Source: a bacterium
Lineage (GTDB): Bacteria; SZUA-79; Acidulodesulfobacterales; Acidulodesulfobacteraceae
Direction of reading: 5' to 3'
Assembly (NCBI GenBank): GCA_021795355.1
Contig: JAJYPL010000008.1
Coordinates: 1 to 46,138 of the forward strand
Length of the DNA stretch: 46,138 nucleotides
The position numbers and the translations under genes were made by a program. Below the pieces are notes generated by a model. The model had not been told where the DNA came from. It made no database searches and was given only the letters and a program-made list of their open reading frames with translations. Shown piece by piece: positions 2,188 to 37,831 of the stretch (its first letter is position 1; each line of letters begins with the position of its first letter).

Positions 2188-3831
2188 ATGAATATCGAAA
2201 ATATTATAAAAAACAACAATTTTGTAGAATACGTCAACGGCGGAACCGATACGGATATTTTATGCATATCCAACGATTCCAGAAAAATTAAGAACGGATG
2301 TCTTTTTGCCGCGAGAAAAGGCGTTGACGTTAATTCAAACGCCTTCGTCGAAGAAGCAATATCTAAAGGCGCCGCGGCGGTATTGACCGACGATGCGGAA
2401 ACGGCGGGAAAACTTAAAAACGAAAAAAATATTACGGTAATTTTCGCTAATGATGCTCTTAAGGCATATGCGGTGATGTCTAAAAATTTTTTCGGCAATC
2501 CAGGCAATAAATTAAAGCTGATAGGGGTTACCGGAACAAACGGAAAAACCACGACGACGTTTCTTATAAAATCTATTTTAAACGCCGCCGGAAACAAAAC
2601 CGGTTTGATCGGCACTATAGATTATGAAATCGGAGAAGGCAAAAAAGAATCTAAAAATACCACCCCCGATGTTTACGAACTTAACGAAATGTTTTCCGAA
2701 ACCGTACGGTCGGGCGGCTCTGCATGCGTTATGGAAGTTTCTTCCCACAGCTTAGACCAGGGAAGGGTTTACGGAATACCGTTCGACGCCGCCGTTTTTA
2801 CTAATTTAACGCGGGATCATTTAGATTACCATAGAGACATGCAATCCTATTACGAAGCAAAAAAGAAACTTTTTTCCGAAGTATTGGCGGAGAGTTCCAA
2901 AACTAAAAAATATGCCGTTATAAACGGCGACGATCCTTATGGTAAAAAACTTACCGAAGAGCTTAAAACGCTGTTTGCCCTCAAATCCATAAATAACGTC
3001 GGTATTATTACATACGGATTAAGCTCCGAATCCGACGTTTCCGCCGAGAACATAAATTACTTCAGAGACGGATTGAAGTTCGACGCCGCGATAAAAGGCC
3101 GGGACGAAAAAGTTCTAAAAAATATACGTTCATCCCTTATAGGCTCTTATAACCTTTATAATATATTAGCTTCCATTGCCGTCGGTTATGCTCTTTCCGT
3201 ACCGGACGAATTTATAATTTCCGGCATAGAATCTCTTTTAAACGTCCCCGGAAGAGTCGAAAAAGTCGATACCGGCGTTCCGTCTTCTCCTTTAGTATGT
3301 ATAGATTATGCGCATACCGACGACGCCGTAAAAAGAGTTCTTTCCGCTTTAAAAGATATCTGCAAAGGGAAACTGATAAGCGTTTTCGGATGCGGCGGCG
3401 ACAGAGACAAAGGGAAAAGGCCGCTTATGGGCAGACATTCGACGGATATCGCCGATATAAGCATAATAACGTCGGACAATCCCAGAAGCGAAGAGCCGTC
3501 GGCTATTATCGAAGAAATAATATCCGGCGTCAAGAATGCATTATATATCGACAAAAAAGACGGAGACGCTTTAATTAATTTCAAAAAGTCTGCCGAGCCG
3601 GAAAGACATGCTTATACGGTAGAAGAAGACAGGGCGGAAGCGATAAAATTAGCTCTTTCTATAGCGGGAGCGGACGATACGGTCGTTATTGCAGGCAAAG
3701 GGCATGAAGATTATATGATAGTAAAAGACGTCAAGTTTCATTTCAGCGATAAAGAGGAAGTATTGAAATATTATAAAACCGGAACTAAAATTTGTGACGG
3801 GGACAGAATTGAATTCTGTCCCCATATTTGA
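2188..3831 (+). CDS. murE: UDP-MurNAc-L-Ala-D-Glu:meso-DAP ligase
   Basis: Cytoplasmic ATP-dependent ligase that adds the third stem-peptide residue. The Mur ligase P-loop GTNGKTT is at residues 116-122. The DNPR signature (430-433) is the known marker of meso-diaminopimelate specificity. GKGHEDY lies near the end of the third domain. At 547 aa it is longer than the usual 480-500. The last 13 or so residues (ending GDRIEFCPHI) are not family sequence: they are a translation of the dispersed palindromic repeat at 3799-3823, which runs into the stop codon. The repeat therefore seems to have replaced the native 3' end and the murE-murF junction. The enzyme is probably active, since the extra tail lies beyond the conserved C-terminal domain. 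Confidence 0.95.
   Translation: MNIENIIKNNNFVEYVNGGTDTDILCISNDSRKIKNGCLFAARKGVDVNSNAFVEEAISKGAAAVLTDDAETAGKLKNEKNITVIFANDALKAYAVMSKNFFGNPGNKLKLIGVTGTNGKTTTTFLIKSILNAAGNKTGLIGTIDYEIGEGKKESKNTTPDVYELNEMFSETVRSGGSACVMEVSSHSLDQGRVYGIPFDAAVFTNLTRDHLDYHRDMQSYYEAKKKLFSEVLAESSKTKKYAVINGDDPYGKKLTEELKTLFALKSINNVGIITYGLSSESDVSAENINYFRDGLKFDAAIKGRDEKVLKNIRSSLIGSYNLYNILASIAVGYALSVPDEFIISGIESLLNVPGRVEKVDTGVPSSPLVCIDYAHTDDAVKRVLSALKDICKGKLISVFGCGGDRDKGKRPLMGRHSTDIADISIITSDNPRSEEPSAIIEEIISGVKNALYIDKKDGDALINFKKSAEPERHAYTVEEDRAEAIKLALSIAGADDTVVIAGKGHEDYMIVKDVKFHFSDKEEVLKYYKTGTKICDGDRIEFCPHI
3799..3823 (+). repeat. Family A palindromic repeat, copy 1 (inside murE 3' end)
   Basis: Perfect 25-bp palindrome with arms GGGGACAGAATT and AATTCTGTCCCC around a single central G. 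The upstream flank TTTGTGAC matches other copies. It lies wholly inside the murE reading frame and encodes its last residues. It is the only full copy seen within a coding region. Confidence 0.93.
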
Positions 3832-3836
3832 TAAAA

Positions 3837-5372
3837 ATGAAAATAAATTACAACTTAACTTTAGACGAAATTTTAAGCGCAGCGGACGGCAAATTAATCA
3901 TTGCCGGCGACGGAACGGGTCCGCTGGTTTTTAACGAAATTTTTACGGATTCGAGGGAGGATTTCGGCAGAAATGCAATTTTTATAGCGTTAAAGGGCAA
4001 GAATTTTAACGGAGAAGACTTCGTCGAAGCCGTTTTTAAAAAAGGCGGCTATTGCGCTTTGGTTTCCTGGGATTTTTTAGAAAACAACGACATATCTAAA
4101 TACGGCGATAAAATTATTATCGCAGCCGCAGACCCCGTGTCTTCATTGGGAGATATTGCAAAATTATATTTAAGTAAATTTAATTTAAATAAAAAAATCG
4201 CCTTAACGGGTTCCTGCGGAAAAACTACTACGAAAGAGATGGTTTATGCGATTTTTTCTGCGGTTTTCGGCGCAGAAAAAATTCTTAAAAACGATTATAA
4301 CTATAATAACTTAATAGGAGTTCCAAAGACTATTTTCCGGCTTGACGGCAGGGTCGAATATCTTATTCTTGAAATAGGAACCAACAAAAAAGGGGAGATA
4401 AAAAGGCTTTCCGAAATTATATCGCCGGAAATCGGAGCTATTACGAATATCGGCAAAGCGCATCTTGAAGAATTTAAAGACACCGAAGGCGTATTCATGG
4501 AAAAATCGGAACTTGCCCGCAGTCTTAATGAATCAGGCCTCCTCGTTCTCAATGCTGACGATTCAATAACGCCCGCAAGATATAAAGATAAAATAAAAGA
4601 AGGAGTAAATATCGTTTCATTCGGTTTTGGAAAAATAAACGCCAAAAATGCTCAAAACGCTCAAGATTTTAAAAATGGTCAAGATGCCGAAAACGGCGGC
4701 GTTCCGGATGTTTTATGCGAAAGCGCTATTTTAAACGAAAAAACAGGAAAAACGACCTTAAACGTTTTCTATAACGGAAAAAAATACGTTATAGAAGTTA
4801 ATTTCAGCGGAAAGCATTTAATTTACGATTTTTTATGCGCTTTTTCCATTGCTTCGGCATGCGGTATCGCTCCCGAAGCCTACATTAATTCTGATGCTTT
4901 TAAAAATTTTAATATTCCGCGCGGAAGAATGGAGATAATCCGTATAGCCGATAATACCGGCGAATGGACTTTGATTGACGACGCATATAATTCCAACCCG
5001 GATTCCCTTAAAGCCGCGCTGGATTTTATAAGAACCGATTATTCCGAAAGCAAAAAAATATTAGTTCTCGGAGACATGCTGGAACTCGGCGGTTCCGCTC
5101 CGGAAGAGCATGTAAAAGCAGGGCGCGAAATCAGCGGCTTAGCCGATTATATTTTTTACAAAGGAGATTATTCCGATTTTGTAACGAAAGGCTTGGAAGA
5201 AAAAAATTTTTCCGGAAAATTTTTTTTAATAAAAGACGATGAAACTTTCAAAAACGATTTTAAAAAATTAGACAAAAATAACGCCGTAGTACTTCTTAAA
5301 GGTTCGAGAGGCATGAAACTCGAAGAGTATTTCAAAGAAGAAACGGGTAAAACGAATAAATCTATATGCTGA
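3837..5372 (+). CDS. murF: UDP-MurNAc-tripeptide:D-Ala-D-Ala ligase
   Basis: Adds D-Ala-D-Ala to complete the UDP-MurNAc-pentapeptide in the cytoplasm. The Mur ligase P-loop GSCGKTTTKEM lies near residue 125, ALKG(K)NFNGEDF in the N-terminal domain, and NSNPDSLKAALDF plus LGDMLELG in the C-terminal domain. About 511 aa, slightly long for the family. The excess is partly an Asn/Gln/Asp-rich insert (NAQNAQDFKNGQDAENGG) near residue 275. ATG 3837 is preferred over an in-frame TTG at 3828 that overlaps the murE stop. Neither has a clear Shine-Dalgarno sequence, because the murE-murF junction is occupied by the palindromic repeat, so translation may depend on coupling to murE. The 3' end overlaps mraY by 7 bp. 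Confidence 0.93.
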   Translation: MKINYNLTLDEILSAADGKLIIAGDGTGPLVFNEIFTDSREDFGRNAIFIALKGKNFNGEDFVEAVFKKGGYCALVSWDFLENNDISKYGDKIIIAAADPVSSLGDIAKLYLSKFNLNKKIALTGSCGKTTTKEMVYAIFSAVFGAEKILKNDYNYNNLIGVPKTIFRLDGRVEYLILEIGTNKKGEIKRLSEIISPEIGAITNIGKAHLEEFKDTEGVFMEKSELARSLNESGLLVLNADDSITPARYKDKIKEGVNIVSFGFGKINAKNAQNAQDFKNGQDAENGGVPDVLCESAILNEKTGKTTLNVFYNGKKYVIEVNFSGKHLIYDFLCAFSIASACGIAPEAYINSDAFKNFNIPRGRMEIIRIADNTGEWTLIDDAYNSNPDSLKAALDFIRTDYSESKKILVLGDMLELGGSAPEEHVKAGREISGLADYIFYKGDYSDFVTKGLEEKNFSGKFFLIKDDETFKNDFKKLDKNNAVVLLKGSRGMKLEEYFKEETGKTNKSIC

Positions 5373-15576: not shown

Positions 15577-15608
15577 GCGGAGACAGAATTTAATTCTGGC
15601 ACTGCCGC
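15577..15608 (-). repeat. Family A palindromic repeat, copy 2 (ftsA-ftsZ gap)
   Basis: Degenerate copy in which GCGGAGACAGAATT is followed by T and AATTCTGGCACTGCCGC. The outer GCGG/CCGC and inner AGAATT/AATTCT pair, but the mid-arms do not. Read on the minus strand, the flank TTTTGCGGCAGTGCC matches copy 5 at 23673, so this looks like a hybrid of two arm types. A TATAAT-like box at 15567-15572 lies just before it, which would place the repeat in a short ftsZ leader if that box is used. Confidence 0.75.
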
Positions 15609-19382: not shown

Positions 19383-19398
19383 AGTTTTTTAACCTTTG

Positions 19399-19486
19399 GG
19401 AAAAGGTGTCAGATTAATTTTCCGCAAACAAATTCTACGCTAAGTAACTGTTTAATATCCGAAAAATAAAATCTGACGCCTTTTCC
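19399..19486 (-). repeat. Family B inverted repeat, copy 1 (88 bp)
   Basis: Imperfect inverted repeat. The left arm 19399-19421 (GGAAAAGGTGTCAGATT...) pairs with the right arm 19463-19486 (...AATCTGACGCCTTTTCC), with about 41 bases between. The arm sequence AAAAGG-N-GTC-N-GAT followed by a T-rich run and CCG recurs at 42449-42510. Located between divergent genes; no coding content. Confidence 0.8.
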
Positions 19487-19499
19487 TTTACATTTTGTG

Positions 19500-19528
19500 A
19501 CGGTACCGGAATTGAATTCTGGTACCGT
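19500..19528 (+). repeat. Family A palindromic repeat, copy 3
   Basis: Arms ACGGTACCGGAATT and AATTCTGGTACCGT around a central G, with one G-T wobble-type mismatch. The flank TTTTGTG upstream matches copy 1. It faces copy 4, forming a convergent pair. Confidence 0.92.
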
Positions 19529-19541: not shown

Positions 19542-19569
19542 ATTATAAAATATTGCGCAATAATCAGAT

Positions 19570-19598
19570 ACGGGGACAGAATTCAATTCTGTCCCCGT
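19570..19598 (-). repeat. Family A palindromic repeat, copy 4
   Basis: Perfect 29-bp palindrome, ACGGGGACAGAATT, C, AATTCTGTCCCCGT. The 45 bases 19566-19610 are identical to 37074-37118 (copy 10). It is followed at once by the ribosome-binding site of the ABC gene. Confidence 0.95.
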
Positions 19599-21176: not shown

Positions 21177-21196
21177 AAAAAGGTCTCATATTAATC

Positions 21197-21223
21197 TTGC
21201 TAAAAAAATCAATATATTATAAT
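21197..21223 (+). promoter_or_regulatory. Possible mreB promoter
   Basis: TATAAT at 21218-21223 in a very AT-rich 90-bp gap upstream of mreB, with TTGCTA at 21197-21202. The spacing is only 15 bp, so the -35 is doubtful; the -10 is the more reliable part. Confidence 0.35.
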
Positions 21224-21251
21224 ATTTAATATATTTAAGATTTATAATTAG

Positions 21252-22304
<1,053 letters not shown>

Positions 22305-22309
22305 CCGTC

Positions 22310-23666: not shown

Positions 23667-23672
23667 TTTGCG

Positions 23673-23701
23673 GCAGTGCCGGAATTGAATTCCGGCACTG
23701 C
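23673..23701 (+). repeat. Family A palindromic repeat, copy 5
   Basis: Perfect 29-bp palindrome, GCAGTGCCGGAATT, G, AATTCCGGCACTGC, immediately after mreD. The upstream flank ATTTGCG matches copy 2 and the fragment at 35431. It forms a convergent pair with copy 6, 19 bp away. Confidence 0.95.
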
Positions 23702-23720
23702 ATTTAAAGAAAAACTAACC

Positions 23721-23749
23721 GCTCTGCCGGAATTCAATTCCGGCAGAGC
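23721..23749 (-). repeat. Family A palindromic repeat, copy 6
   Basis: Perfect 29-bp palindrome, GCTCTGCCGGAATT, C, AATTCCGGCAGAGC. The preceding TAACC is the same edge seen at copies 7 and 9. It has a different arm sequence from copy 5, so the pair does not arise by simple inverted duplication. Confidence 0.95.
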
Positions 23750-23768
23750 TAACAATCGGTAAACGAAT

Positions 23769-24803: not shown

Positions 24804-24818
24804 TAAATAATATGCCAT

Positions 24819-26714: not shown

Positions 26715-26717
26715 ATT

Positions 26718-27830
26718 ATGAAAATATTAAATAATAAATATACGCAGAATTTCGATTTTATAATACTTTTTACGGTAATTATAATTTTTTCCCTCGGCAT
26801 TATTAATCTTTACGGTTCTTTAAGCATACACAATAAAGATTTTTTCGATCCTTACGTCATAAAACAGATCGTATGGTTTATAGTGTCTATCCTGATAATG
26901 TCATTAATAATATCTATAGATTATAATACCCTTATAGAAGCGGCGTATTATATATACGGATTTATTTTAATATTTATAGTTATCGTGCTCGCAAAAGGAA
27001 GGATTACGCACGGGGCTTCGAGATGGATTTCTCTCGGCATGTTTTCGTTTCAGCCTTCCGAATTAATGAAAATAGCCCTGATATTCGCTCTCGTCAAATA
27101 TTTTACGACCTACGAAAACAAAAAAGGATACAACCTGCGGAGTCTCGCTATACCTTTTATTATAATATTGATACCGGTTTTGTTTATAGCTAAAGAGCCG
27201 GATTTGGGAACGTCCCTGATAGTATTGTTTATAGGGCTGATTATTATTTTTTTGGCGGGAATTAAAAGAAATTCCATGCTTATACTTGCCGGAATTATTC
27301 TTACAGCCGGTCCGGTTTTATGGTTCAGGCTTAAATCTTACCAGAAAAGCAGAATACTGATATTTCTGCATCCCGCAAAAGATTATCTCGGAGCCGGATA
27401 TAATATAATACAGTCGGAAATAGCCGTCGGCGCGGGAAAGCTTTTCGGCGACGGTTTCGGCAACGGCTCCCAGAGCACTTTGGATTTTTTGCCGGCAAAA
27501 CATACCGATTTTATTTTTTCGACGTATATGCAGCAGTTCGGTTTTATAGGCGGATTAGTTCTTATAATTCTCTATTTTATAGTTATAATAAGGGGATTTA
27601 AGATAGTTTACAGAGCCAAAAAACTTCAGGGTTTTTTACTCGGCGGCGGAGCGCTTGCCATTATAACTTTTCATGCTATAATAAATATGTTTATGACCGT
27701 CGGTCTTCTGCCCGTAGTGGGCGTTCCGCTTCCGTTTTTCAGCTACGGCGGCACGTCGCTCGTAGTAGATATGTCCGCAGTAGCCATACTCCTGAATATT
27801 TCCATGAGGAGGTATAAATTCCAGTCGTAA
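26718..27830 (+). CDS. rodA: Elongation SEDS glycosyltransferase RodA
   Basis: Polytopic SEDS lipid II polymerase of the elongasome. It shows GASRWISLGMFSFQPSELMKI, KEPDLGTSLIVL, GDGFGNGSQSTLDFLPAKHTDFIF and the C-terminal PLPFFSYGGTSLV. 370 aa with about ten hydrophobic segments. It begins 3 bp after mrdA, the usual PBP2-RodA pairing, which separates it from ftsW at 7846. Confidence 0.95.
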   Translation: MKILNNKYTQNFDFIILFTVIIIFSLGIINLYGSLSIHNKDFFDPYVIKQIVWFIVSILIMSLIISIDYNTLIEAAYYIYGFILIFIVIVLAKGRITHGASRWISLGMFSFQPSELMKIALIFALVKYFTTYENKKGYNLRSLAIPFIIILIPVLFIAKEPDLGTSLIVLFIGLIIIFLAGIKRNSMLILAGIILTAGPVLWFRLKSYQKSRILIFLHPAKDYLGAGYNIIQSEIAVGAGKLFGDGFGNGSQSTLDFLPAKHTDFIFSTYMQQFGFIGGLVLIILYFIVIIRGFKIVYRAKKLQGFLLGGGALAIITFHAIINMFMTVGLLPVVGVPLPFFSYGGTSLVVDMSAVAILLNISMRRYKFQS

Positions 27831-27848
27831 ATATATGGAATAGATAAA

Positions 27849-28346
27849 ATGAACGAATTTAAAAAAAATAACCCGTTTATTTTTGCGGCATCCTTTTTTT
27901 ACGCAGGTTTTTTTCCTTACGGACCGGGTACCGCCGGTTCCGTCGCCGCTTTTTTGCTCTATATATTTCTGCTTAGATTTTTAAACCCTTTTTATTATAT
28001 CGCCGTATGTATTATAATATTTATTTCGGGAGTTTACGTTTCTTCCAAAGCGTCGAAAATATCCGGATTAGACGATCCGTCTTTCGTAGTCATAGACGAA
28101 GTTCTGGGCTATCTTGCGGTTATGTCCGGTTTATTATGGATGCATTTCGATTTTTTTCATATTTTGATATACTCGTTACTGGGGCTTTTTCTTTTTCGCA
28201 TCTTCGACATATCGAAGCCGCTTTTTATAGGAACTATAGATAAAAAAATTAAAGGCGGGTTAGGTATTATGCTGGACGACATCGCCGCCGCCCTTTTTTC
28301 CGTAATAATTTTAAGAATTGCTATAGTAATAATAGCGGGCATCTAA
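27849..28346 (+). CDS. pgpA: Phosphatidylglycerophosphatase A
   Basis: Small integral membrane phosphatase that converts phosphatidylglycerol phosphate to phosphatidylglycerol. The family signature YGPGTAGSVAA is near residue 25 and the acidic VVIDEVLGYLAVM motif near residue 80, followed by DISKPLFIG and LGIMLDDIAAAL. 165 aa, with about four membrane segments. It starts 18 bp after rodA and its stop overlaps the cinA start by one base, so it is probably transcribed with both. Confidence 0.92.
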   Translation: MNEFKKNNPFIFAASFFYAGFFPYGPGTAGSVAAFLLYIFLLRFLNPFYYIAVCIIIFISGVYVSSKASKISGLDDPSFVVIDEVLGYLAVMSGLLWMHFDFFHILIYSLLGLFLFRIFDISKPLFIGTIDKKIKGGLGIMLDDIAAALFSVIILRIAIVIIAGI

Positions 28347-29611
28347 TGAAAGATATAAAAATACTAGTCATATCCGACGACGGAAATTTTGCTGCGGCGG
28401 GTGAAATAATAAAAGAGCTCTCAGACGTGCTTTCAATTTACGGACTCGGTTTCAAAGAAGCGGTAATTATGCCCGAAAGCCAGACTGTAAGCATATCTAA
28501 AGTCGTATCTTATATGACGTCGGAAGATTCTTTCGTAATAATATGCGGCGGCATAAAAGAAGGAAACGCTTTAACTTCCGAAATAATATGCTCCGTTTTA
28601 AAGCAAGAACGGGCGAGAAGCAAAGACGCCGCAGACTTGATGGCTTTAGTTTACGAATCGAACAAAAAATCTTTCGGCCCCTCCGCCGAAAAAGCATGTT
28701 ATTTTCCCGACCATTCTTTTATCGTGCCGAATCAAAATTCCGGCATATCCGGTTTTTATCTTACCGAACCCGTGTTCATAGCCGCATTTCCGTTAGAGCC
28801 CGATAATGCGGTTTATATGTTTAAAAATCACGTTCTAGGTAAAATGCTCGGAAAACTCGGCATAAACTATTTCGTCAAATTTAGGAAATATAAGCTGTTC
28901 GGTTTAAAAGAAAAAGAGTTTGAGGCGCTTTTTGCAAAATTAAAACAGGTTTCGGATGTTAATTTGACGTACGAATATTCATACGGGGAATTTATTATAT
29001 CCGCGGCGGTAAACGGCGTTTCCACTCAAAAACTTAATGAAAACATAAAGTTAATAGATGCAAAAACCGAGGGAATTTTTAAAAGATATCTTTACGGCTA
29101 CGACGAAGACGAGCTTGAAGTAGTGTGTTCATATCTGCTAAAGGAGAACGAAATCAAGATATCCGTGGCGGAATCCCTTACCGGAGGGCATATTTCCGAC
29201 AAGCTTACCGATCTGCCGGGCGCATCCTCTTATTTTCTTTACGGAGGCGTAGTATATTCAAATTTTGCGAAAACCGATATTCTGGGGGTAGATCCGGCTG
29301 TTATAGAAAAAGAAGGCGCCGTTTCCGAAGCATGCGCAGAGGAAATGGCCGAAAAAGTAAGGGAAAAAACAAAAGCGGATATAGGTATCGCCGTTACCGG
29401 CTTGGCAGGGCCGCAAACGGACGGCGGAAATTACCCTGTAGGAACGGTTTTTATAGCATTATCGAGCGATAAAATCAAAGAGTCCAGAAAATATATTTTT
29501 TCCGGTTCGCGCGCCGATATAAAGTCTTATACGACGAAAATGGCGCTATTCTGGATTTACAGACTTTTAAACGAAACAAGCGGCAGAAATAATGACAAAA
29601 ATTTAACTTGA
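28346..29611 (+). CDS. cinA: CinA-like protein with PncC-type nicotinamide-nucleotide amidase domain
   Basis: 421 aa. The C-terminal half (about 265-410) is an intact CinA/PncC domain with SVAESLTGGHISDKLTDLPGAS (given in part: AESLTGG, LTDLPGASSYF), GGVVYSNFAK, and VTGLAGPQTDGGNYPVGTVF. It hydrolyses nicotinamide mononucleotide to nicotinate mononucleotide in the NAD salvage cycle. The N-terminal half should be the COG1058 ADP-ribose pyrophosphatase domain, but the diagnostic TGGLGPTxDD stretch is replaced by CGGIKEGNALTSE and the start is divergent, so this domain looks degenerate. The order cinA-recA is conserved in many bacteria. Confidence 0.85.
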   Translation: MKDIKILVISDDGNFAAAGEIIKELSDVLSIYGLGFKEAVIMPESQTVSISKVVSYMTSEDSFVIICGGIKEGNALTSEIICSVLKQERARSKDAADLMALVYESNKKSFGPSAEKACYFPDHSFIVPNQNSGISGFYLTEPVFIAAFPLEPDNAVYMFKNHVLGKMLGKLGINYFVKFRKYKLFGLKEKEFEALFAKLKQVSDVNLTYEYSYGEFIISAAVNGVSTQKLNENIKLIDAKTEGIFKRYLYGYDEDELEVVCSYLLKENEIKISVAESLTGGHISDKLTDLPGASSYFLYGGVVYSNFAKTDILGVDPAVIEKEGAVSEACAEEMAEKVREKTKADIGIAVTGLAGPQTDGGNYPVGTVFIALSSDKIKESRKYIFSGSRADIKSYTTKMALFWIYRLLNETSGRNNDKNLT

Positions 29612-29636
29612 TAATCTTTCTTTTTTTTAATATATT
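29608..29636 (+). promoter_or_regulatory. Probable recA promoter
   Basis: TTGATA (29608-29613), a 17-bp spacer and TATATT (29631-29636), overlapping the last bases of cinA. Transcription would start near 29643, so the palindromic repeat at 29647-29674 would be in the recA leader. No convincing LexA box was seen. Confidence 0.6.
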
Positions 29637-29646
29637 ATATTTAACC

Positions 29647-29674
29647 GCGGGGACAGAATTCAATTCCGCCCCGC
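29647..29674 (-). repeat. Family A palindromic repeat, copy 7 (recA leader)
   Basis: GCGGGGACAGAATT, C, AATTCCGCCCCGC. The arms pair except for a one-base length difference and a mismatch next to the core. The flanks TTAACC and GCAACAAA are shared with copy 9. It lies between the recA promoter and ribosome site. Confidence 0.9.
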
Positions 29675-29698
29675 AACAAATAAGCGACAGGTGAAATT

Positions 29699-30751
29699 AT
29701 GGCAGTAAAATCAGGCGAAACTAAAGAAAACGTTAAAGAAAGCGCAAAAGACGCAGCTATCCATGAGCAAAAAATGAAAGCGCTGGACCTTGCAATGGCT
29801 CAGATAGAAAAGCAGTTCGGCGCGGGAGCCGTCATGGTTCTCGGCGGAAAGCCGCCCGCAGAAAATATACAGTCTATTCCGACCGGCTCTCTGTCGTTAG
29901 ATATTGCTCTCGGCATAGGCGGCATACCTAAAGGAAGGGTAATAGAAATATTCGGACCGGAATCGTCGGGAAAAACGACGCTTACGCTGCAAATAGTTGC
30001 ACAGGCTCAAAAACGCGGAGGCATAGCCGCCTTTATCGATGCGGAGCACGCCTTAGACTTGCAGTATGCAAAAAAAATAGGGGTCAATGTCGATCAGCTT
30101 GTGGTTTCTCAACCCGGCACGGGAGAAGAGGCTTTAGAAATAGCGGATTCGTTGGTAAGGTCCGGTTCTATCGACGTTTTGGTAATAGACTCCGTCGCCG
30201 CATTGGTGCCTAAAGCCGAAATAGAAGGCGAAATGGGGGACTCCCATATGGGACTGCAGGCAAGGCTTATGTCGCAGGCTTTAAGAAAACTTACGTCGGC
30301 TATCGCAAGGTCTAATACGTCGGTTATATTCATCAACCAGATAAGGATGAAAATAGGCGTTATGTTCGGTTCTCCCGAAACCACTACCGGCGGCAACGCT
30401 CTTAAGTTTTATGCATCCGTCCGTATAGATATAAGAAGAACAGGCTCTATAAAAAAAGGCGACGAAGTAGTCGGCTCCAGGACTAAAGCCAGGATAGTAA
30501 AAAATAAAGTAGCTCCTCCGTTTAAAGAAGCCGAGTTCGACATAGTTTACGACAGCGGAATATCTTTAGAAGGCGACATAGTGGATATAGGTTCGGAAAA
30601 CGGCATAATCGAAAAATCGGGAACTTGGTTCAGCTACGGCAAAGAAAGGCTTGGACAGGGAAGGGAAGCCGCAAAAGAAACCCTCAAAAACAACCCTGCA
30701 TTACGCGACGAAATACATTCTAAAATTTTAGAAAAATTTAATCTTAAATAA
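29699..30751 (+). CDS. recA: Recombinase RecA
   Basis: DNA-dependent ATPase for strand exchange and SOS induction. It has the Walker [12 protein letters not shown], the [22 protein letters not shown] region (in part), [15 protein letters not shown] for Walker B, the L2-type segment [21 protein letters not shown], and [14 protein letters not shown]. 350 aa. The N-terminal 30 residues are longer and more charged than in E. coli; ATG 29699 follows an AGGTGA site. pilT-like gene follows after 6 bp. recX lies one gene further on. Confidence 0.97.
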
Positions 30752-30757
30752 AAAAAA

Positions 30758-32035
30758 ATGGACGAAACGGTTTTACAGTCTAATGCCGCACAGGACGTTC
30801 AACAGGTTAAGCCCGGAGGACAGCCTTCTCTTTTAGAAACGATTTTAATGACGGCGGTCGGCAAAAAAGCATCGGATATTCACCTTAAAGTAAATTCTTA
30901 TCCTATTTTTAGAATAGACGGGGATATTTACAGACAGGAAAATTTCGGCGTTATGTCCAAAGAAGTCATAGAAAAAATAGCCGTAAGCATGATGGATAAG
31001 CATCAGCTTAAAGTTTTTCAGGAAAACAGGGACGTCGATCTAGCATACAGCCTGCGCAGCGTAGGAAGATTCAGGGTCAATATTTATTCGCAGCGGAATT
31101 CTTTAAGCATAGCAATGCGCTATATTCCCTTCGATATTCCTATTTTTGAATCGCTTAACCTGCCGAAAATCATAAAGTCTATAGCCCTTAAAGAAAGAGG
31201 ATTAATACTCGTTACCGGCATAACCGGCAGCGGAAAGTCCACGACCCTCGCTTCTATGATAGATTTTATAAACAGGAACAAGCCCGTAAACATAATAACC
31301 ATCGAGGACCCCATCGAATATCTTCATAAAGATATAAAAGCCGTAATAAACCAGCGGGAACTCGGAATGGACGTTTATTCTTTTTCGCACGGATTAAGAG
31401 AAGCCTTAAGGCAGGATCCCGACGTTATTTTAGTCGGCGAAATGAGGGACTTGGAAACTATAGAAACCGCTATAACTGCCGCCGAAACGGGACATCTCGT
31501 AATGAGCACCCTTCATACGCTCGATGCGCAGGAGACTATAAACAGAATTATAGCCGTTTTTCCGCCCTATCAGCAAAAACAGATAAGAATTCAGCTTGCT
31601 TCCGTTATTTCAGCCGTAATATCCCAGAGGCTTATTGCAAGGGCGGACAAAAAAGGACGCCTTCCGTCCGTCGAGATAATGATAGGAACGGAAACGATAA
31701 AAGAATGTATAGCAAACGAAGATAAAACTGCGAGTATCAGGGACTTCATAAAAAGCGGAAACATACAGTACGAGATGCAGACTTTCGATCAGTCGCTCTA
31801 TAATTTCTATAAACAGGGTTTAATAACATACGAAGATGCTCTTGCGGAGTCCACCTCGCCGAACGATCTTGCCCTGTTAATATCCGGAGTAAATGCTTCC
31901 GACGACGATATAAGCGCAGGGGTTAAAGCAGACTCCGCCGTGAGCGGCAAAACTTCCGGCGCCGCCGGAGCAAGCCCTTCGGGAACGGGAACTGCGGCGG
32001 CTTCAGGCGGTTCCGGTTCTTACTGGACCACGTAA
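30758..32035 (+). CDS. Type IV pilus retraction ATPase, PilT/PilU family
   Basis: Hexameric cytoplasmic secretion ATPase that powers pilus disassembly and twitching. It has an N-terminal PAS-like domain (LLETILMTAVGKKASDIHLK), Walker A GITGSGKSTT, the ASP and Walker B region IITIEDPIEYLH and DVILVGEMRDLET, and the His box TGHLVMSTLHT. The end of the core, EMQTFDQSLYNFYKQGLITYEDALAESTSPNDL (in part), resembles PilU more than PilT. A low-complexity Ala/Gly/Ser tail of about 45 residues follows. No other pilus genes lie nearby. Its place between recA and recX is unusual. Confidence 0.9.
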   Translation: MDETVLQSNAAQDVQQVKPGGQPSLLETILMTAVGKKASDIHLKVNSYPIFRIDGDIYRQENFGVMSKEVIEKIAVSMMDKHQLKVFQENRDVDLAYSLRSVGRFRVNIYSQRNSLSIAMRYIPFDIPIFESLNLPKIIKSIALKERGLILVTGITGSGKSTTLASMIDFINRNKPVNIITIEDPIEYLHKDIKAVINQRELGMDVYSFSHGLREALRQDPDVILVGEMRDLETIETAITAAETGHLVMSTLHTLDAQETINRIIAVFPPYQQKQIRIQLASVISAVISQRLIARADKKGRLPSVEIMIGTETIKECIANEDKTASIRDFIKSGNIQYEMQTFDQSLYNFYKQGLITYEDALAESTSPNDLALLISGVNASDDDISAGVKADSAVSGKTSGAAGASPSGTGTAAASGGSGSYWTT

Positions 32036-32061
32036 CCGCAGGTATGTTTATGCGCAAAATT

Positions 32062-32090
32062 TTGAAGTACAGCGCTATATAATATATTAT
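32062..32090 (+). promoter_or_regulatory. Possible recX promoter
   Basis: TTGAAG (32062-32067), a 17-bp spacer and TATTAT (32085-32090), in the 68-bp gap before recX. An overlapping TATAAT at 32078-32083 lacks a matching -35. Confidence 0.45.
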
Positions 32091-32103
32091 CGGAGCAGCC
32101 TCT

Positions 32104-32595
32104 TTGAAAATATCGCAGGAAAATATTTCTAAAAGAAAGTCGAAAACGCCGCTATCGGCGCAGGATTACTCTTTAAAGCTCGTATCCGCGAGGTCTTATT
32201 CCGAAAAACGGCTTGCCGAAAAATTAATCAAAAAAGGCTTTTCTACGGAAGATACCGGCAAAGCATTAAAGAAACTTAAAGAATACGGATACCTAAACGA
32301 CGAGGAATTTGCGGAAAGACTTATAGAAAACGGAAAAAAAAGACTTATCGGCAGAATAAAATTAAGCTATGAACTTTATAAAAAAGGAATAAACAAAAAT
32401 ATTATAGACAAGCTTATCGAAACGTTTTACACGGAAGACGAAGAACGTTCCGTTATGCTTAAAGCGGTGGACAAAAAGAAAGTTTCCCTGATAAAGTACA
32501 GGGAAAACGAACTGATATTCAAAAAGAAACTTTACGATTTTTTGCAGAGCAGAGGATTTTCCTCTAAAATAATAGAAGACTTAATTAAACAGTAG
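32104..32595 (+). CDS. recX: RecA regulatory protein RecX
   Basis: 163-aa helical protein that binds and restrains RecA filaments. It shows tandem three-helix repeats with family features AQDYSLKLVSARSYSEKRLAEKLIKKGFS (in part: ARSYSEKRLAEKL), LKEYGYLNDEEFAERLIE and LLSRGFSSKIIEDLI-like end (LQSRGFSSKIIEDL). No ATG is available near the N-terminus; TTG 32104 has GGAG eight bases upstream. The TAG stop overlaps the first base of repeat copy 8. Confidence 0.9.
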   Translation: MKISQENISKRKSKTPLSAQDYSLKLVSARSYSEKRLAEKLIKKGFSTEDTGKALKKLKEYGYLNDEEFAERLIENGKKRLIGRIKLSYELYKKGINKNIIDKLIETFYTEDEERSVMLKAVDKKKVSLIKYRENELIFKKKLYDFLQSRGFSSKIIEDLIKQ

Positions 32596-32617
32596 GGACG
32601 GAATTGAATTCCGTCCC
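32595..32617 (+). repeat. Family A palindromic repeat, copy 8
   Basis: Perfect 23-bp palindrome, GGGACGGAATT, G, AATTCCGTCCC, beginning on the last base of the recX stop codon. Convergent with copy 9, 13 bp away. Confidence 0.94.
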
Positions 32618-32630
32618 CTTGTATTTAACC

Positions 32631-32659
32631 GTGGGGGCAGAATTCAATTCTGTCCCCGC
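32631..32659 (-). repeat. Family A palindromic repeat, copy 9 (before alaS)
   Basis: GTGGGGGCAGAATT, C, AATTCTGTCCCCGC. The only two arm mismatches would both be G-U wobbles in RNA. It shares the flanks TTTAACCG and GCAACAAA with copy 7 at recA. Confidence 0.93.
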
Positions 32660-32673
32660 AACAAAAATGGAAT

Positions 32674-35379
32674 ATGATAAAATCAAACGAACTTAGGGGA
32701 ATATTCATTAAATTTTTTACGGAAAAAGGACATGCGCCTATTCCGAGTTCTTCTTTAATTCCTGCGGGCGACGACTCCATAATGTTTACGAATGCCGGAA
32801 TGGTCCAGTTTAAGGACTATTTTACGGGCGCTGCCCAGGCGCCCGTATCCCGCGCCGTAACCGTTCAAAAGTGCATGCGCGCAGGAGGCAAACATAACGA
32901 CCTCGAAAACGTCGGCAAAACTTCCCGCCATCACACTTTTTTTGAAATGCTCGGAAATTTTTCTTTCGGAGACTATTTTAAAAAAGATGCCGTTTTGTTT
33001 GCTTATGAATTTATAAAAGACGTCCTGGAACTCGACCTCGGCAAAATATACGTTACCGTAAACGATAAAGACGAAGACGGTTATAATATCTGGAAAAATA
33101 CCGTAGGTTTCGACGAAAACAAAATATACAGGCTCGGCGACGAAACGAATTTCTGGCAGATGGGAGAAACCGGTCCGTGCGGCTATTCAAGCGAAATATT
33201 TTACGATACCGGCTATTCCGAAGCGGGACATGCGGAGTGCGATATTAATTGCGATTGCGGCAGATATTTAGAAATATGGAATCTCGTTTTTATGGAATTC
33301 AACAGAGACAAAAAAGGAGACCTTTCAAAGTTGCCGCGTCCCTCGATAGACACGGGAATGGGGCTTGAGCGCATACTGCGAATTTTGCAGAACGTCCGGT
33401 CAAATTACGATACCGACGTTTTTACTCCTTATATAAAAGAGATAGACGCCGCTACCGGAAAACGATACAACGGCGGAGACGAAGCATACGATACCGCCGC
33501 AAGGGTTATCAGCGACCATATAAGGACGTCCGTTTTTTTATCCGCCGAATCCGTATTTCCGTCCAACGAAGGCAGAGGTTACGTATTCAGGAGAATTTTA
33601 AGAAGACTTATCAGGTATTCTTTAAAGCTCGGCATAAGTCTCGACAGCCTGAAATATCTCGGCAATATCGTCGTAATAATTATGGGCGGATTTTATCCCG
33701 AAGCCGCCGACGGTCTTTCGGTTTTCGAGAAAATAATCTCCGAAGAATACGAAAGGTTTAACGACACGGTAGGGCAGGGAATTAAACTTTTGGAAGAAAA
33801 AATTATAGAACTTAAAGATAAAAAGCAGAAGACGGTTCCCGGCGATTTCGTATTTAAATTATACGACGAAAAGGGTTTTCCTGTAGATATAGCAATAGAT
33901 ATGGCTGAAGAAAACGGTTTTTCGGTAGATTTAAAAACTTACGGCGAATTAATGGAACTTCAGAAAAAAGGTTCTAAGCAGAAAAAAGAAAAAAACGGAG
34001 TTCCCGAAACCGTGGAAGGCGTACCCAAATCGCTTTTTAAAGGATACGGTAATATAGAAAACGCCGTTTCCGCAGATATTACCGGTATATTCGACGAAGA
34101 CGGCAGACCTGCGGAAAATATAGAAGACGGCGGTTTTTATTATATATCCTCGGCTGTTACTCCTTTTTATCCCGAAGGAGGCGGTCAATCCGGCGACGGA
34201 GGAACCATAAAGTTTAATTACGGGAAATATTCGTTATCCGCCTCGGTTTCCGATACCTTTAAAACTAAAAACGGGGTTATTCTTCATTATGCCAGAATAT
34301 TTACCGAAAGCATGAAGGATGCGGAACAGAATCTCGGCGCCGCCTCCTCCGAAGAAATACTTGCTCCGCCGGTTTTTCCCGTTAAGGCAAGTTTTTCCGT
34401 CGATGCGGGATCGAGAAAAAAAACTGCGGCAAATCACAGCGCAGTTCATCTTCTTCAGGCTGCGCTAAGAGAGATACTCGGCAGCCGCGTAACCCAGCAG
34501 GGTTCGTTCGTCGATCCGGAAAGGCTCAGATTCGATTTTTCGTACGGCAAGCCTCTGACCGACGAAGAAATCAGGAAAACGGAAGTTTTAGTCAACGGCT
34601 ATATTTTTGCCGACCTTGAAGTAAAAACGCATGAACTTGACGTTCAAACCGCTTTAAACTCCGGCGCTCTTCACTTTTTCGACGAAAAATACGAAGATAC
34701 GGTAAGGGTGGTATCGATGGGGACGGCGTCAAAAGAATTCTGCGGAGGCACTCATGTTTCGAGAACCGGAGAAATAGGATTTTTTAAGATTACCGGCGAA
34801 TCTTCGGTAGCTTCCGGAATAAGGCGCATAGAAGCCGTTACCGGTTTTAATTATCTCGACTACCTGCACGTGGAAGAGGACAATATATTTAATATCGCCA
34901 AACTGCTTAATACTTCAAAATCCGAAGTTTACAACAGAATAATAAAACTGTATTACGACTATGAACTGCTTGACAAAACCAACGGGGAGCTCAGGTCGAA
35001 ACTCAACTCTTTCGAATCCGAACGCCTTATAAAATCTTTTAAAACGGGCACTGCGGGCGCCGCCGGATTTAAATATCTAATTTCAAAATTCGGCAGCGTT
35101 TCCGGCGAAGAATTAAAAGAGCTTGTAAATACACTAAGTTCAAGGCGCGATTTCCCTGAAGGCGATTCCGTCGTAGTTTTTATATCCAATATTAAAGACG
35201 AAAAGCTGATTTACGTCGTATCGGCAAAAGGCTCCATAGACGCATCCGCCGTTATAAAGCGCATTAATTCGGAAACCGGAGGAAAAGGCGGAGGCAAAAA
35301 AGATTTTTCTCAGGGCGGAACGCAGGACGTTTCAAAATTCGACGGAATAGAAAAAATCGTCGAGTCCGTATTGCTATGA
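32674..35379 (+). CDS. alaS: Alanyl-tRNA synthetase
   Basis: Charges tRNA-Ala. It has the class II catalytic domain at the N-terminus (MFTNAGMVQFKDYFTG, RAGGKHNDLENVG, RHHTFFEMLGNFSFGDYFK), the NEGRGYVFRRILRR tRNA-binding motif, the editing domain with the zinc/catalytic HxxxH (NHSAVHLLQAAL) and CGGTHVSRTGEIGFF, and a C-Ala domain ending GGKGGGKKDFSQGGTQD. At 901 aa it is slightly longer than E. coli AlaRS (876). ATG 32674 has only a weak GGAA upstream. Its stop overlaps the next start (ATGA), so the downstream lipoprotein gene is translationally coupled. Confidence 0.97.
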   Translation: MIKSNELRGIFIKFFTEKGHAPIPSSSLIPAGDDSIMFTNAGMVQFKDYFTGAAQAPVSRAVTVQKCMRAGGKHNDLENVGKTSRHHTFFEMLGNFSFGDYFKKDAVLFAYEFIKDVLELDLGKIYVTVNDKDEDGYNIWKNTVGFDENKIYRLGDETNFWQMGETGPCGYSSEIFYDTGYSEAGHAECDINCDCGRYLEIWNLVFMEFNRDKKGDLSKLPRPSIDTGMGLERILRILQNVRSNYDTDVFTPYIKEIDAATGKRYNGGDEAYDTAARVISDHIRTSVFLSAESVFPSNEGRGYVFRRILRRLIRYSLKLGISLDSLKYLGNIVVIIMGGFYPEAADGLSVFEKIISEEYERFNDTVGQGIKLLEEKIIELKDKKQKTVPGDFVFKLYDEKGFPVDIAIDMAEENGFSVDLKTYGELMELQKKGSKQKKEKNGVPETVEGVPKSLFKGYGNIENAVSADITGIFDEDGRPAENIEDGGFYYISSAVTPFYPEGGGQSGDGGTIKFNYGKYSLSASVSDTFKTKNGVILHYARIFTESMKDAEQNLGAASSEEILAPPVFPVKASFSVDAGSRKKTAANHSAVHLLQAALREILGSRVTQQGSFVDPERLRFDFSYGKPLTDEEIRKTEVLVNGYIFADLEVKTHELDVQTALNSGALHFFDEKYEDTVRVVSMGTASKEFCGGTHVSRTGEIGFFKITGESSVASGIRRIEAVTGFNYLDYLHVEEDNIFNIAKLLNTSKSEVYNRIIKLYYDYELLDKTNGELRSKLNSFESERLIKSFKTGTAGAAGFKYLISKFGSVSGEELKELVNTLSSRRDFPEGDSVVVFISNIKDEKLIYVVSAKGSIDASAVIKRINSETGGKGGGKKDFSQGGTQDVSKFDGIEKIVESVLL

Positions 35380-36335
35380 GCGCAGATAAGGTTAAGACGG
35401 CGCAGGAAGCGAATTCCGGCGAAAGTGTCAATTTTGCGGCAGTGCCGGAGCAGTCATTGCGGGCATATCTTTTATATATAAAAGACGGAAGCAATCTCTT
35501 TAAGAAAACTGCTGCAGTATCGTTGTCTGTTTCCCTGATATTTATATCTTTCTTTTTCAGCGGATGCGCGGTAAACGTAAAGACGCCTGTTCAGCCTTAT
35601 AGCGCCAAGCCCGCAGCATATAAAAGCAGAAAAGAAGTTCTGGCGGGACTTATTAAAAATTACGGAACGTTCGGCGGGTTATCCGGAAGACTGAGTTTTA
35701 AAGTATCGGACGGCGGTTTTTCTGTCGAGCAGGCGGGAATTTATAAATATATAGCCGGAAAGTATATAAGTTTTATGGTTTTAGATATGTACGGCGACGT
35801 TCTTTTCTACGCGAAAATAATTAAAACGAAAAACGGGACGGAAGCCGTCTTTTTAAATCCCAAAGACGGCAAAGTTAAAACGATAAACTTAGATAAAAAA
35901 TATAAGGTTAGAATTAACGATAACGGTAAAACGCAAAATTACCAAAGGCTGTTAAGGGTTTTTAAAATTTTGCTTTTTATCGATAAATTAAATAAAATAA
36001 AAAAGGCGCCGGTTTTTTATAACACCGAAAAAGGTTTCTTTTTTGCATACGGAGGAAAATGCGAGGGCGCAGATATGAAGGCGCAGGCTGCGCATAAGGC
36101 TTCGAACTGCGGCTTTTCGGGCTACTATATAAACGTTTCCAAAAAATACCTTATCCGTTCCGTAACTTCGGTCAAAAACGGAAAAAAAATAGAATCGGCA
36201 CGTTTTAAAGACTACGTTTTAAAAGGCTCCGGCGCTAATAAAAGCATGGTGCCTTTAAAAATATATGTTGACGATTATTTATATAATGTTAAAATGAATA
36301 TACGTCTTTCTAAAGGAAGCAAACTGCTTAACTAA
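35376..36335 (+). CDS. Outer-membrane lipoprotein, possibly LolB/DUF4292-like
   Basis: 319 aa. A hydrophobic segment (about 44-62) ends in a lipobox FFSGC with the lipidation cysteine at C64, so a long hydrophilic N-terminal region precedes it. If the start is instead TTG 35469 (LRAYLLYI...), the signal peptide is of normal size. The mature part (GTFGGLSGRLSFKVSDGGFSVEQ onward) is beta-rich, as in LolA/LolB-like lipoproteins that carry lipids or lipoproteins, but I cannot confirm that by motif. The upstream region holds a 19-bp fragment of the palindromic repeat (35431-35449), which may have lengthened the frame. bamD follows after 2 bp. Confidence 0.6.
   Translation: MSADKVKTAQEANSGESVNFAAVPEQSLRAYLLYIKDGSNLFKKTAAVSLSVSLIFISFFFSGCAVNVKTPVQPYSAKPAAYKSRKEVLAGLIKNYGTFGGLSGRLSFKVSDGGFSVEQAGIYKYIAGKYISFMVLDMYGDVLFYAKIIKTKNGTEAVFLNPKDGKVKTINLDKKYKVRINDNGKTQNYQRLLRVFKILLFIDKLNKIKKAPVFYNTEKGFFFAYGGKCEGADMKAQAAHKASNCGFSGYYINVSKKYLIRSVTSVKNGKKIESARFKDYVLKGSGANKSMVPLKIYVDDYLYNVKMNIRLSKGSKLLN
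35431..35449 (+). repeat. Fragment of family A repeat inside a coding region
   Basis: The 19 bases ATTTTGCGGCAGTGCCGGA match the flank and left arm of copies 2 and 5, but the core and right arm are missing. Lies in the doubtful N-terminal part of the lipoprotein gene. Confidence 0.6.
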
Positions 36336-36337
36336 TT

Positions 36338-37072
36338 ATGAAAAAACTGACATTATTAATATCTGTTATCGCGGTAACCTCCGCATTTTCCGTCATGCTT
36401 TCCGGATGCGGCAAAAACGTAAAGAAGAATATTTTGCCGCCGGACGTTTATTACGGCAAAGCCATGCACGATTCGCAAGTTAAGAATTACGGCGGCGCAG
36501 TGAAAAATTTTAAAGCCCTGATAGAAAATTATCCGGCTTACGGCAAAACCGAAATTGCGGAAATAAGGCTCGGCGACGTTTATTATCTTGAAGGAAAATA
36601 TATCGAATCAGCAGGCGCATATTTGGATTTCGTGCATCTGCATCCCCGCTCGAAATACGTTCCTTTCGCAATGTATTACGAAGCTATGTCTTATTTTAAA
36701 AGAAATTTAGCTGTCGGCAGAAATCAAGCCCCTCTTAAAAACGCAAAAAAGATTTTTGAAAAACTTATATCGAAATACCCTTATTCAAAATATTCAAAAA
36801 AATCTTTTAAGTATATTAAATTTATAAATATAAAACTTTCCGAAAACACCTTTTTTACCGGACTCTACTATTACAATGCAAGCATCTGGAAATCGGCGGC
36901 TTATATGTTTAAAACGGTATTAAAGCAGTATGGACGGGACGGCGTTCCTATTATACCTAAAACCCTTTATTATCTTTCGGCCTGTTATAAGAATCTCGGA
37001 AATAAAAAAATGGAAGCCCGCTACATGAATATGCTTAAAACAAAATATCCTAAAAGCAGGTATGCGGAATGA
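36338..37072 (+). CDS. bamD: Outer membrane assembly lipoprotein BamD
   Basis: 244-aa lipoprotein of the BAM complex that inserts beta-barrel proteins into the outer membrane. The signal peptide ends with lipobox LSGC (C24). Tetratricopeptide-type helices follow: VYYGKAMHDSQVKNYGGAVKNFKALIENYPAYG (in part), RLGDVYYLEGKYIESAGAYLDFVHLHPRS (in part), YYLSACYKNLGNKKMEARY at the end. Length, lipobox and repeated YP/HP turns fit BamD (YfiO). The C-terminal Cyc2-like barrel protein at 44703 is an expected client. The stop is closely followed by repeat copy 10. Confidence 0.88.
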   Translation: MKKLTLLISVIAVTSAFSVMLSGCGKNVKKNILPPDVYYGKAMHDSQVKNYGGAVKNFKALIENYPAYGKTEIAEIRLGDVYYLEGKYIESAGAYLDFVHLHPRSKYVPFAMYYEAMSYFKRNLAVGRNQAPLKNAKKIFEKLISKYPYSKYSKKSFKYIKFINIKLSENTFFTGLYYYNASIWKSAAYMFKTVLKQYGRDGVPIIPKTLYYLSACYKNLGNKKMEARYMNMLKTKYPKSRYAE

Positions 37073-37077
37073 TAGAT

Positions 37078-37106
37078 ACGGGGACAGAATTCAATTCTGT
37101 CCCCGT
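37078..37106 (-). repeat. Family A palindromic repeat, copy 10 (before infC promoter)
   Basis: Perfect 29-bp palindrome, ACGGGGACAGAATT, C, AATTCTGTCCCCGT. It lies in a 45-bp block (37074-37118) identical to 19566-19610. Confidence 0.95.
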
Positions 37107-37126
37107 CACAACTTGGAACATTAGTA

Positions 37127-37155
37127 TTGACACGGCGCTTAAATTATGCAATAAT
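37127..37155 (+). promoter_or_regulatory. infC operon promoter
   Basis: Perfect TTGACA (37127-37132), a 17-bp spacer, and AATAAT (37150-37155, five of six). Transcription would start near 37161, leaving a leader of about 30 bases before the infC start. The repeat copy 10 sits just upstream of the -35, not in the leader. Confidence 0.72.
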
Positions 37156-37193
37156 TTAATGCTAACGAAAAAAATAAAAAAGGAGAAATTAAT

Positions 37194-37790
37194 ATACAGA
37201 AAAATAACAGAACGCATATAAACGAAAGTATCAGGGCAAAAGAGGTAAGGGTTATCGACGAAAACGGCAGGCAGGCGGGCATAATGCCTTTATATGAAGC
37301 CGTTAAACTTGCCAAAGAAAAGCTTCTCGACCTCGTGGAAGTATCGGAAGAAGCCGTTCCTCCGGTATGCAGGATAATGGATTTCGGCAAGTTTAAATAC
37401 GAGCAGAACAAAAAAGCTCAGGAAGCCAAGAAGAAACAGGTCGTTATCCATTTAAAAGAAGTTAAATTCAGGCCTAATACCGACGAGCACGATTACAATT
37501 TTAAATTAAAAAACGCCCTTTCTTTTCTTAAAGACGGAAACAAAGTCAAACTTACGGTAACGTTTAAAGGCAGAGAGCTTGCCCATACGGAATTGGGAAT
37601 CAAGGTAATACTGAGGGTTATCGAAGATTTAAAGGAGTTCGGGGTTCCTGAGTTTCCTATTAAGCCCGACGTTAAAAGGACGTTCAGCACTGTTATAGTG
37701 CCGGTCAAGACGGCTAAAAAGACTGCCGAAAAAAACGTCGCTAAAAATGGAAAAACTAAAGAAACGAAAGAGGCGGAAAAAACGGTATAA
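37194..37790 (+). CDS. infC: Translation initiation factor IF-3 (non-AUG start)
   Basis: Binds the 30S subunit and checks the start codon. The N-terminal domain begins QKNNRTHINESIRAKEVRVI, which must be translated for a complete IF3, yet no ATG, GTG, TTG or CTG occurs in frame between the stop at 37152 and ATG 37284. The frame has ATA at 37194, eight bases after AGGAG (37181-37185), and ATT at 37188 only two bases after it; ATA is better placed. IF3 in enterobacteria starts with AUU and represses itself through that codon. C-domain motifs GPPVCRIMDFGKFKYEQ-like (PPVCRIMDFGKFKYEQ) and KLTVTFKGRE are present. A lysine-rich tail ends the protein. Confidence 0.9.
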   Translation: MQKNNRTHINESIRAKEVRVIDENGRQAGIMPLYEAVKLAKEKLLDLVEVSEEAVPPVCRIMDFGKFKYEQNKKAQEAKKKQVVIHLKEVKFRPNTDEHDYNFKLKNALSFLKDGNKVKLTVTFKGRELAHTELGIKVILRVIEDLKEFGVPEFPIKPDVKRTFSTVIVPVKTAKKTAEKNVAKNGKTKETKEAEKTV

Positions 37791-37802
37791 TAACAAGTTG
37801 TG

Positions 37803-37831
37803 ACGGTGCCGGAATTGAATTCCGGCACCGT
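37803..37831 (+). repeat. Family A palindromic repeat, copy 11 (infC-rpmI gap)
   Basis: Perfect 29-bp palindrome, ACGGTGCCGGAATT, G, AATTCCGGCACCGT. The preceding CAAGTTGTG is the reverse complement of the flank of copies 4 and 10. It lies between infC and rpmI in the probable operon transcript. Confidence 0.95.

Follow-up and report, generated by a model that had tools for sequence, protein, structure and literature searches.

A dispersed palindromic repeat family with paired arm changes, probably mobile, in an Acidulodesulfobacteraceae genome

Contig JAJYPL010000008.1 of assembly GCA_021795355.1 (Acidulodesulfobacteraceae), whose whole 46,138-nt stretch is called the window here, carries eleven copies of a palindromic repeat unit of ~45 bp, TTCCAAGTTGTG-ACGGGGACAGAATT-G-AATTCTGTCCCCGT-ATCT, in which a palindrome of 14 bp surrounds a single centre base; TTGTG stands unpaired at one side as a tag, and the right end is ATCT or ATTT. 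The copies are members of a dispersed family in which changes in one arm are matched by changes in the other; very probably the family is a mobile element resembling repetitive extragenic palindromes (REPs), small repeats whose spread is attributed to bacterial transposases. As an overall explanation, we put at about even the chance that the repeat is a non-autonomous element, REP-like or like terminal inverted repeats (TIRs), that is copied into intergenic sites and that a Y1 transposase of the TIRYT type mobilises in trans. REP-like repeats are common, and their spread and persistence as palindromes are poorly understood; genomes with 0–77 cores, empty sites, tandem stages and in-place arm swaps allow transposition, template switching and selection to be compared within one family.

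Rfam gave no match in the window at the gathering score, and an open-access text search for six 12-mers returned no paper on bacterial repeats, as judged by title and the start of the abstract. Within the open-access literature searched, the repeat is new as a sequence family, though of a known kind.

Structure and covariation of the repeat unit

A first-pass annotation of the window had described eleven copies sharing an invariant core, GAATT-(G/C)-AATTC, between covarying arms. At ≤1 mismatch the window has eleven matches to GAATTSAATTC, where chance predicts 2.05 and none of 100 shuffles gave as many; ten are exact and the eleventh, at 15586, has a T centre, so that the count stands and the G/C centre applies to ten copies. 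For copy-level counts, 50 of the 53 exact cores in the window's own genome (G000, an assembly of 1.31 Mb in 54 contigs, 66% complete) were listed and fetched. Oriented by their flanks alone, these 50 copies gave the consensus TTTGTG / ACGGGGACAGAATT G AATTCTGTCCCCGT / ATTTA, with Watson-Crick pairing in 37–50 copies at pairs 1–14 and a drop to 8 copies at pair 15. The centre base was G in 41 copies and C in the other 9, the pattern having admitted only G or C. TTG stands at the foot in 43/50 copies; the flank is thus one-sided and gives the unit a direction, as had been proposed. The commonest arm, exact GGGGACAG, accounts for 33 of the 100 arms.

All 14 pairs are perfect in 28/50 copies. In the window perfect pairing is limited to 5/11 copies (19579, 23682, 23730, 37087 and 37812), fewer than the majority claimed before, and the two copies said to carry mismatches of the G-U type only were recovered at 19509 and 32640. 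The copy at 3806 has one C-A mismatch, and those at 15586, 29656 and 32601 are paired more poorly. Single-strand DNA folding gave z scores of −6.4 to −8.3 in the four window copies tried.

Covariation was measured in an alignment of 39 regular G000 copies, 11 of the 50 being left out as irregular, tandem or of unclear orientation (among them the window copy at 29656). Paired cells made up 97.6% of the alignment versus 86.0% in shuffles, and the covariation score was 0.342 versus 0.125; neither value was reached in 500 shuffles. Both sides had changed at 8 of the 12 pairs tested, which 1 of 500 shuffles reached. The arms do covary. The accompanying claim, that the hairpin and not the arm sequence is kept, agrees with these paired changes and goes too far in two respects, as the arms are not free (one arm sequence makes up a third of them) and mismatched, half-and-half copies exist.

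The search pattern itself selected the core, which therefore looks more fixed than it is. Among 23 places read in G000 beyond the first 50, which include the three remaining exact cores, there are more copies whose centre is A or T or whose core is slightly altered, and relatives carry an alternative core, GATTTSAAATC; the core is conserved yet not invariant. The idea that copies with a C centre are inverted spacers is unsupported, since A and T centres occur too. An intrinsic terminator was also rejected, in agreement with the annotation: a hairpin followed by a T-run was not the rule on either side, a run of ≥5 T being present on the 3′ side in 2/50 copies and on the other side in 0/50.

Genomic distribution, mobility and arm replacement

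The family extends well beyond the window. With both strands of G000 searched at E ≤ 1, a covariance model built from the 39 copies gave 133 matches, merged by hand into at least 71 places; this is a lower bound, as scoring was limited to 150 of the 773 first-look candidates and 2 of the 50 exact cores are absent from the 71. Counts from the model in other genomes are likewise lower bounds, with at most 150 candidates scored in each. By a simple rule for open reading frames (ORFs), 45/50 copies lie between ORFs though coding sequence makes up 91% of that DNA. Three of the five copies within ORFs occupy the 3′ end of a frame running into the repeat, one is at an over-called start, and the fifth is in an 80-aa, possibly spurious ORF near a contig end. 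The window holds 10 of the 53 exact cores against 1.9 expected (P 5.9e-6), having been chosen after the repeats were seen.

Copy number varies strongly within the genus. Across 16 same-genus genomes, whose assemblies differ in completeness, exact cores (CNGAATTSAATTCNG) numbered 52 in G000, 56 in G012, 4 in G013, 2 in G014, 0 in G015, 77 in G016, 9 each in G017 and G018, 4 in G019, 18 in G020, 44 in G021, 2 in G022, 3 in G023, 46 in G024, 6 in G025 and 5 in G026; part of the last count may be foreign because contig C123 of G026 (L161) resembles G000 at 93% identity. G026 has its own, more distant homologous region on C80, and C123 is a probable binning contamination. In 14 genomes of other genera there were 0 or 1 exact cores each. 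Each genome has between 0 and 8 occurrences of the alternative core CNGATTTSAAATCNG; two genomes from another genus have 7 and 5.

A search of named genomes, which may leave out records near the window's genome, gave 24 stretches with the exact 29-mer; the hits were metagenome-assembled genomes (MAGs) labelled "bacterium" and two labelled Desulfuromonadales. The latter (G030 and G031; L125–L150) share the core palindrome and, with both strands searched at E ≤ 0.001, match the model at least 11 and at least 41 times; among the matches listed the flanks are mostly A-rich and T-rich, and no TTGTG foot was seen. IMG/VR, searched as to viral origin, held one contig with an exact 25-mer.

Window positions 18500–38400 were compared with 16 genomes of the genus including its own, and homologous stretches were obtained from 13 of the 15 others (not G014 and G023). 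Six sites, S1–S6, were read, covering nine of the eleven window copies; copies 1 and 2 are outside the comparison. The best-matching pieces of G012, G016, G021 and G024 are ~90–93% identical to G000. Positions and arms differ between these relatives, as the first-pass annotation had implied. At S1, copy 4 is missing from G024, G016 and G021; the copy at S5 (copy 10) is absent in G012, G016, G021 and G024; that at S6 (copy 11) is absent in G012, G016 and G021 and decayed in G024. Copies 4 and 10 are units identical over 45 nt at unrelated sites. At S2, S3 and S4 most of the four close relatives have copies in the same place, with different arms and in different numbers. The more distant genomes of the genus are mostly without copies at S1–S6; G025 has one at S4, and palindromes with the GATTTSAAATC core stand at S4 in G020 and G022 and at S5 in G017.

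At locus L029 a copy is inserted within a second small element, here called B′, making it ~41 nt longer than its ~82-bp relatives. The empty sites in close relatives and this copy inside another small repeat together argue that the repeat is mobile and non-autonomous, and mobility of a REP-like element is the part of our reading we hold most probable. Head-to-tail arrays with a period of 37–38 bp are present in G000 and G012; their units constantly begin with TTCC, which is joined directly to a shortened right arm. One locus of G012 (L270, contig C30) consists of five head-to-tail units of 38 bp.

At one fixed site the outer arms have changed as pairs. The position of copy 6, at S2, is occupied in close relatives too, and the flanks match across species, while the outer arms read GCTCTGCC in G000, GCTATACC in G016 and GCCGTGCC in G021, each with its complement opposite. 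G016 and G021 each have two double changes relative to G000 in the outer arms, all of them compensated, and each pairs at 13 of 14 positions, with one unpaired change beside the centre; in ~60 nt of downstream flank a manual count gave 1 change (G016) and 3 changes (G021). The copies in G024 and G012 are less perfect, with 10 and 11 of 14 pairs. The two S2 copies of G021 share an unusual asymmetric core, present in inverted order, and this suggests that copying took place between them. Copies whose arms are half-and-half and do not match were found at S3 in G012 and at S4 in G021. Symmetry is thus usual, not absolute, and besides selection on the hairpin, copying of perfect sources or template switching may account for it; selection and templated copying are inseparable here.

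These observations bear on an alternative in which arrays and paired arms come mainly from replication errors: hairpin template switching and recombination between neighbours would rewrite one arm from the other, transposition would be rare and the hairpin would not be under selection. The inverted pair at S2 in G021, the half-and-half arms, and the runs of up to four consecutive units (three to four, by reading) at shared sites in G016 all speak for it, and PMC8794818 reports that hairpins can arise and be maintained by template switching. Replication errors alone, however, place no new copies at unrelated sites, as seen for copies 4, 10 and 11 and for the insertion into B′, and they leave the common TTGTG tag unexplained; we regard this alternative as unlikely. 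Similarly doubtful is the reading of the repeat as a self-correcting mobile palindrome, in which the arms would be rewritten as a unit at a fixed place with pairing kept. Pairing itself would then be what is inherited, maintained through hairpin-templated repair or through renewed copying from other units, and the family might represent REPs with a third class of tag and no dedicated transposase beside them.

Candidate mover and relation to known repeat classes

For the reading given at the outset, of an element moved in trans, the mechanism would be as follows. A Y1 transposase (HUH, IS200-like) belonging to the TIRYTs, subclass 2.1, would recognise the single strand in its folded form, with the hairpin and the TTGTG tag, and would move it in trans. 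Arm pairing would persist since only well-folded units would be copied, and might be further aided by template switching or recombination among neighbouring copies. In characterised systems the enzyme recognises a single-stranded hairpin together with its tetranucleotide foot, according to PMC8266576.

Y1_Tnp (PF01797) was found in 19 of the 30 family genomes. Frames of 244–268 aa with the motifs NHVH or NHIH, LWESR and YIELNP are present in G012, G013, G016, G019, G020 and G021 (the G021 frame ending at a contig end), with Pfam support for Y1_Tnp in three of these proteins; the Y1 gene of G015 is broken. The same motifs are given for subclass 2.1 Y1 transposases in the sections of PMC6006769 consulted, whose authors tentatively equate the subclass with the TIRYTs of PMC3733652; a C-terminal helix-turn-helix (HTH) is also reported for it. 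The six frames fit subclass 2.1 in length and motifs, an assignment that is partial because Pfam found no C-terminal HTH in the three proteins tried.

A second link is the octamer GGGGWSAS, which the ends of TIRYT elements share in the portion of PMC3733652 seen. The GGGGACAG arm fits it, and 19/50 copies have at least one fitting arm, 14/50 two. Of ten longer Y1 loci, six (L082–L086 and L088) carry GGTGTCAG or GGGGACAG before ATTTATT; these repeats read GG[T/G]G[T/A]CAGATTTATT and lie in the fetched 1.8–3.3 kb around the Y1 genes. Locus L093 carries GGCGTCAG, and L080, L081 and L092 are without GGTGTCAG, GGGGACAG or GGCGTCAG. The Y1 neighbourhoods of the genus at L082–L086 and L088 have repeats like AATAAAGG[T/G]G[T/A]CAGATTTATT. 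The palindrome family itself suggests that the TIRYT-end octamer can occur in dispersed palindromes away from its enzyme gene.

Several results weigh against such a mover. Y1_Tnp was not found in the 66% complete G000 assembly, nor in G024 (81% complete) despite its 46 exact cores. No copy adjoins any of 30 family Y1_Tnp loci (best E 0.32), 10–12 kb around the Y1 genes of G016 and G020 hold no copy bar one weak match ~5 kb off, and none of the five Y1 loci of G031, which shares the core palindrome, adjoins a copy. The association with IS200/RAYT genes envisaged in the first-pass annotation was therefore not borne out by adjacency, and the indirect motif link remains. A C-terminal HTH was not found in three Y1 proteins, for which Pfam at E ≤ 1 gave Y1_Tnp alone, and 31/50 copies have no arm strictly fitting GGGGWSAS. 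Y1 presence and copy number are weakly linked (one-sided P 0.032 in 12 genomes ≥86% complete, relatedness ignored, with G015, whose gene is broken, and G017 and G025, which have the IS200 type only, scored as lacking Y1). Target duplication was not seen in the relatives compared at S1–S6, and the ends are inexact at empty sites. Since the palindrome stands beside no Y1 gene, the mover is one we infer, and a TIRYT-type Y1 enzyme is put forward tentatively.

The likeness to the TIR families of TIRYTs, as far as these are described in the consulted parts of PMC3733652 and PMC6006769, lies in the fit of the commonest arm to the octamer, in units that are small, dispersed, sometimes self-complementary and found as dimers or clusters, and in the presence of TIRYT-size Y1 proteins in the genus. 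The repeat differs from them in adjoining no Y1 gene (0/30 family loci at E < 0.3; 0/5 G031 loci), in its 14-bp palindrome with a one-base centre and unpaired TTGTG tag, and in that six of ten Y1 loci carry another repeat with a related octamer instead.

With GTAG and CGTC REPs the repeat shares a small intergenic palindrome, an unpaired tag at one end, variable high copy number, and tandem or inverted groups. GT[AG]G was found at the hairpin foot in 0/50 copies at either end, and CGTC (or TGTC/CCTC) in 0/50 copies within 5 nt of either foot. The repeat is not a canonical GTAG or CGTC REP, and its correspondence to TIRs is half complete; in the wide sense it is REP-like, since its palindromes are small, numerous and mostly intergenic and bear a tag on one side.

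A REPIN consists of two inverted REPs with a spacer. Like REPINs and miniature inverted-repeat transposable elements, the repeat is non-autonomous and has empty sites in relatives, and the nearby B′ element has inverted ends ~80 bp apart; the unit here, in contrast, is a single palindrome.

A host function, either as the site of a DNA-binding protein or as an mRNA hairpin protecting or attenuating transcripts, is improbable. The hairpins are strong and mostly intergenic, some lie in the leaders of recA, alaS and infC, and S2, S3 and S4 retain a copy in most close relatives. S5 and S6, though, lack one even in close relatives, and distant genomes are mostly without copies at all sites; orientation relative to co-directional neighbour genes has no bias (15 same, 19 opposite), the T-run is missing, and G015, a 99% complete congener, has no exact core. 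That the copies derive from a larger autonomous non-Y1 insertion sequence, as its terminal repeats or as remnants, is highly improbable: some are paired at 1–2.5 kb spacing, but the genes between nine such pairs (two being the same locus in two genomes) are not transposases by ORF reading, no family search having been run.

Copies in the window and their neighbours

Among the genes adjoining the window copies are those for Mur ligases and a SurA-like and a YfiO-like protein, together with ftsA/ftsZ, recA, recX, alaS and infC. At its 3′ end the first Mur ligase ORF (2188–3831) runs into copy 1 (3797..3825, + strand; arms ACGGGGACAG / CTGTCCCCAT), reads through it as its last residues (3797–3831; ~TGTELNSVPIF, by eye) and has its stop codon in the repeat's flank. 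Copy 2 (15577..15605, −), between ftsA and ftsZ, is imperfect, with half-and-half arms and a T centre on the + strand.

Copy 3 (19500..19528, +; arms ACGGTACCGG / CTGGTACCGT) follows a B′ element at 19397..19490, with inverted ends GGAAAAGGTGTCAGATTAATTTTCC and, at the other end, GGCGTCAG; at this site B′ is absent from G016, G021 and G024. Members of B′ (window 19397–19490; L018, L019, L020, L022, L029 and L030) are ~82 bp long with inverted ends AAAGGTGTCAGATT...TTTTCC. Co-clustering of the two elements, with a B motif within ≤150 nt of 11/50 copies versus 1.9% of random positions, was not counted because the null ignores their shared intergenic location and the loci had been picked around copies. 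Copy 4 (19570..19598, −), perfect at 14/14 pairs, is upstream of an ABC transporter ATPase gene.

Copy 5 (23673..23701, +; arms GCAGTGCCGG) and copy 6 (23721..23749, −; arms GCTCTGCCGG) are both perfect and inverted relative to each other, copy 6 lying upstream of the SurA-like gene. Copy 7 (29647..29675, −), imperfect and with shifted arms, is directly 5′ of the recA start codon; by reading of the sequences, its site has several units in G016 and G021 and one in G012. Between recX and alaS are copy 8 (32592..32620, +), whose orientation is uncertain, with TTGTG on neither side, and copy 9 (32631..32659, −).

Copy 10 (37078..37106, −), perfect, is between the YfiO-like gene and infC, and copy 11 (37803..37831, +; arms ACGGTGCCGG), also perfect, is between infC and a downstream gene read as rpmI. 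In the region 37200–37790 the infC start is apparently non-ATG (ATT after GGAGAA), the listed ATG ORF beginning at position 23 of the IF3_N model.

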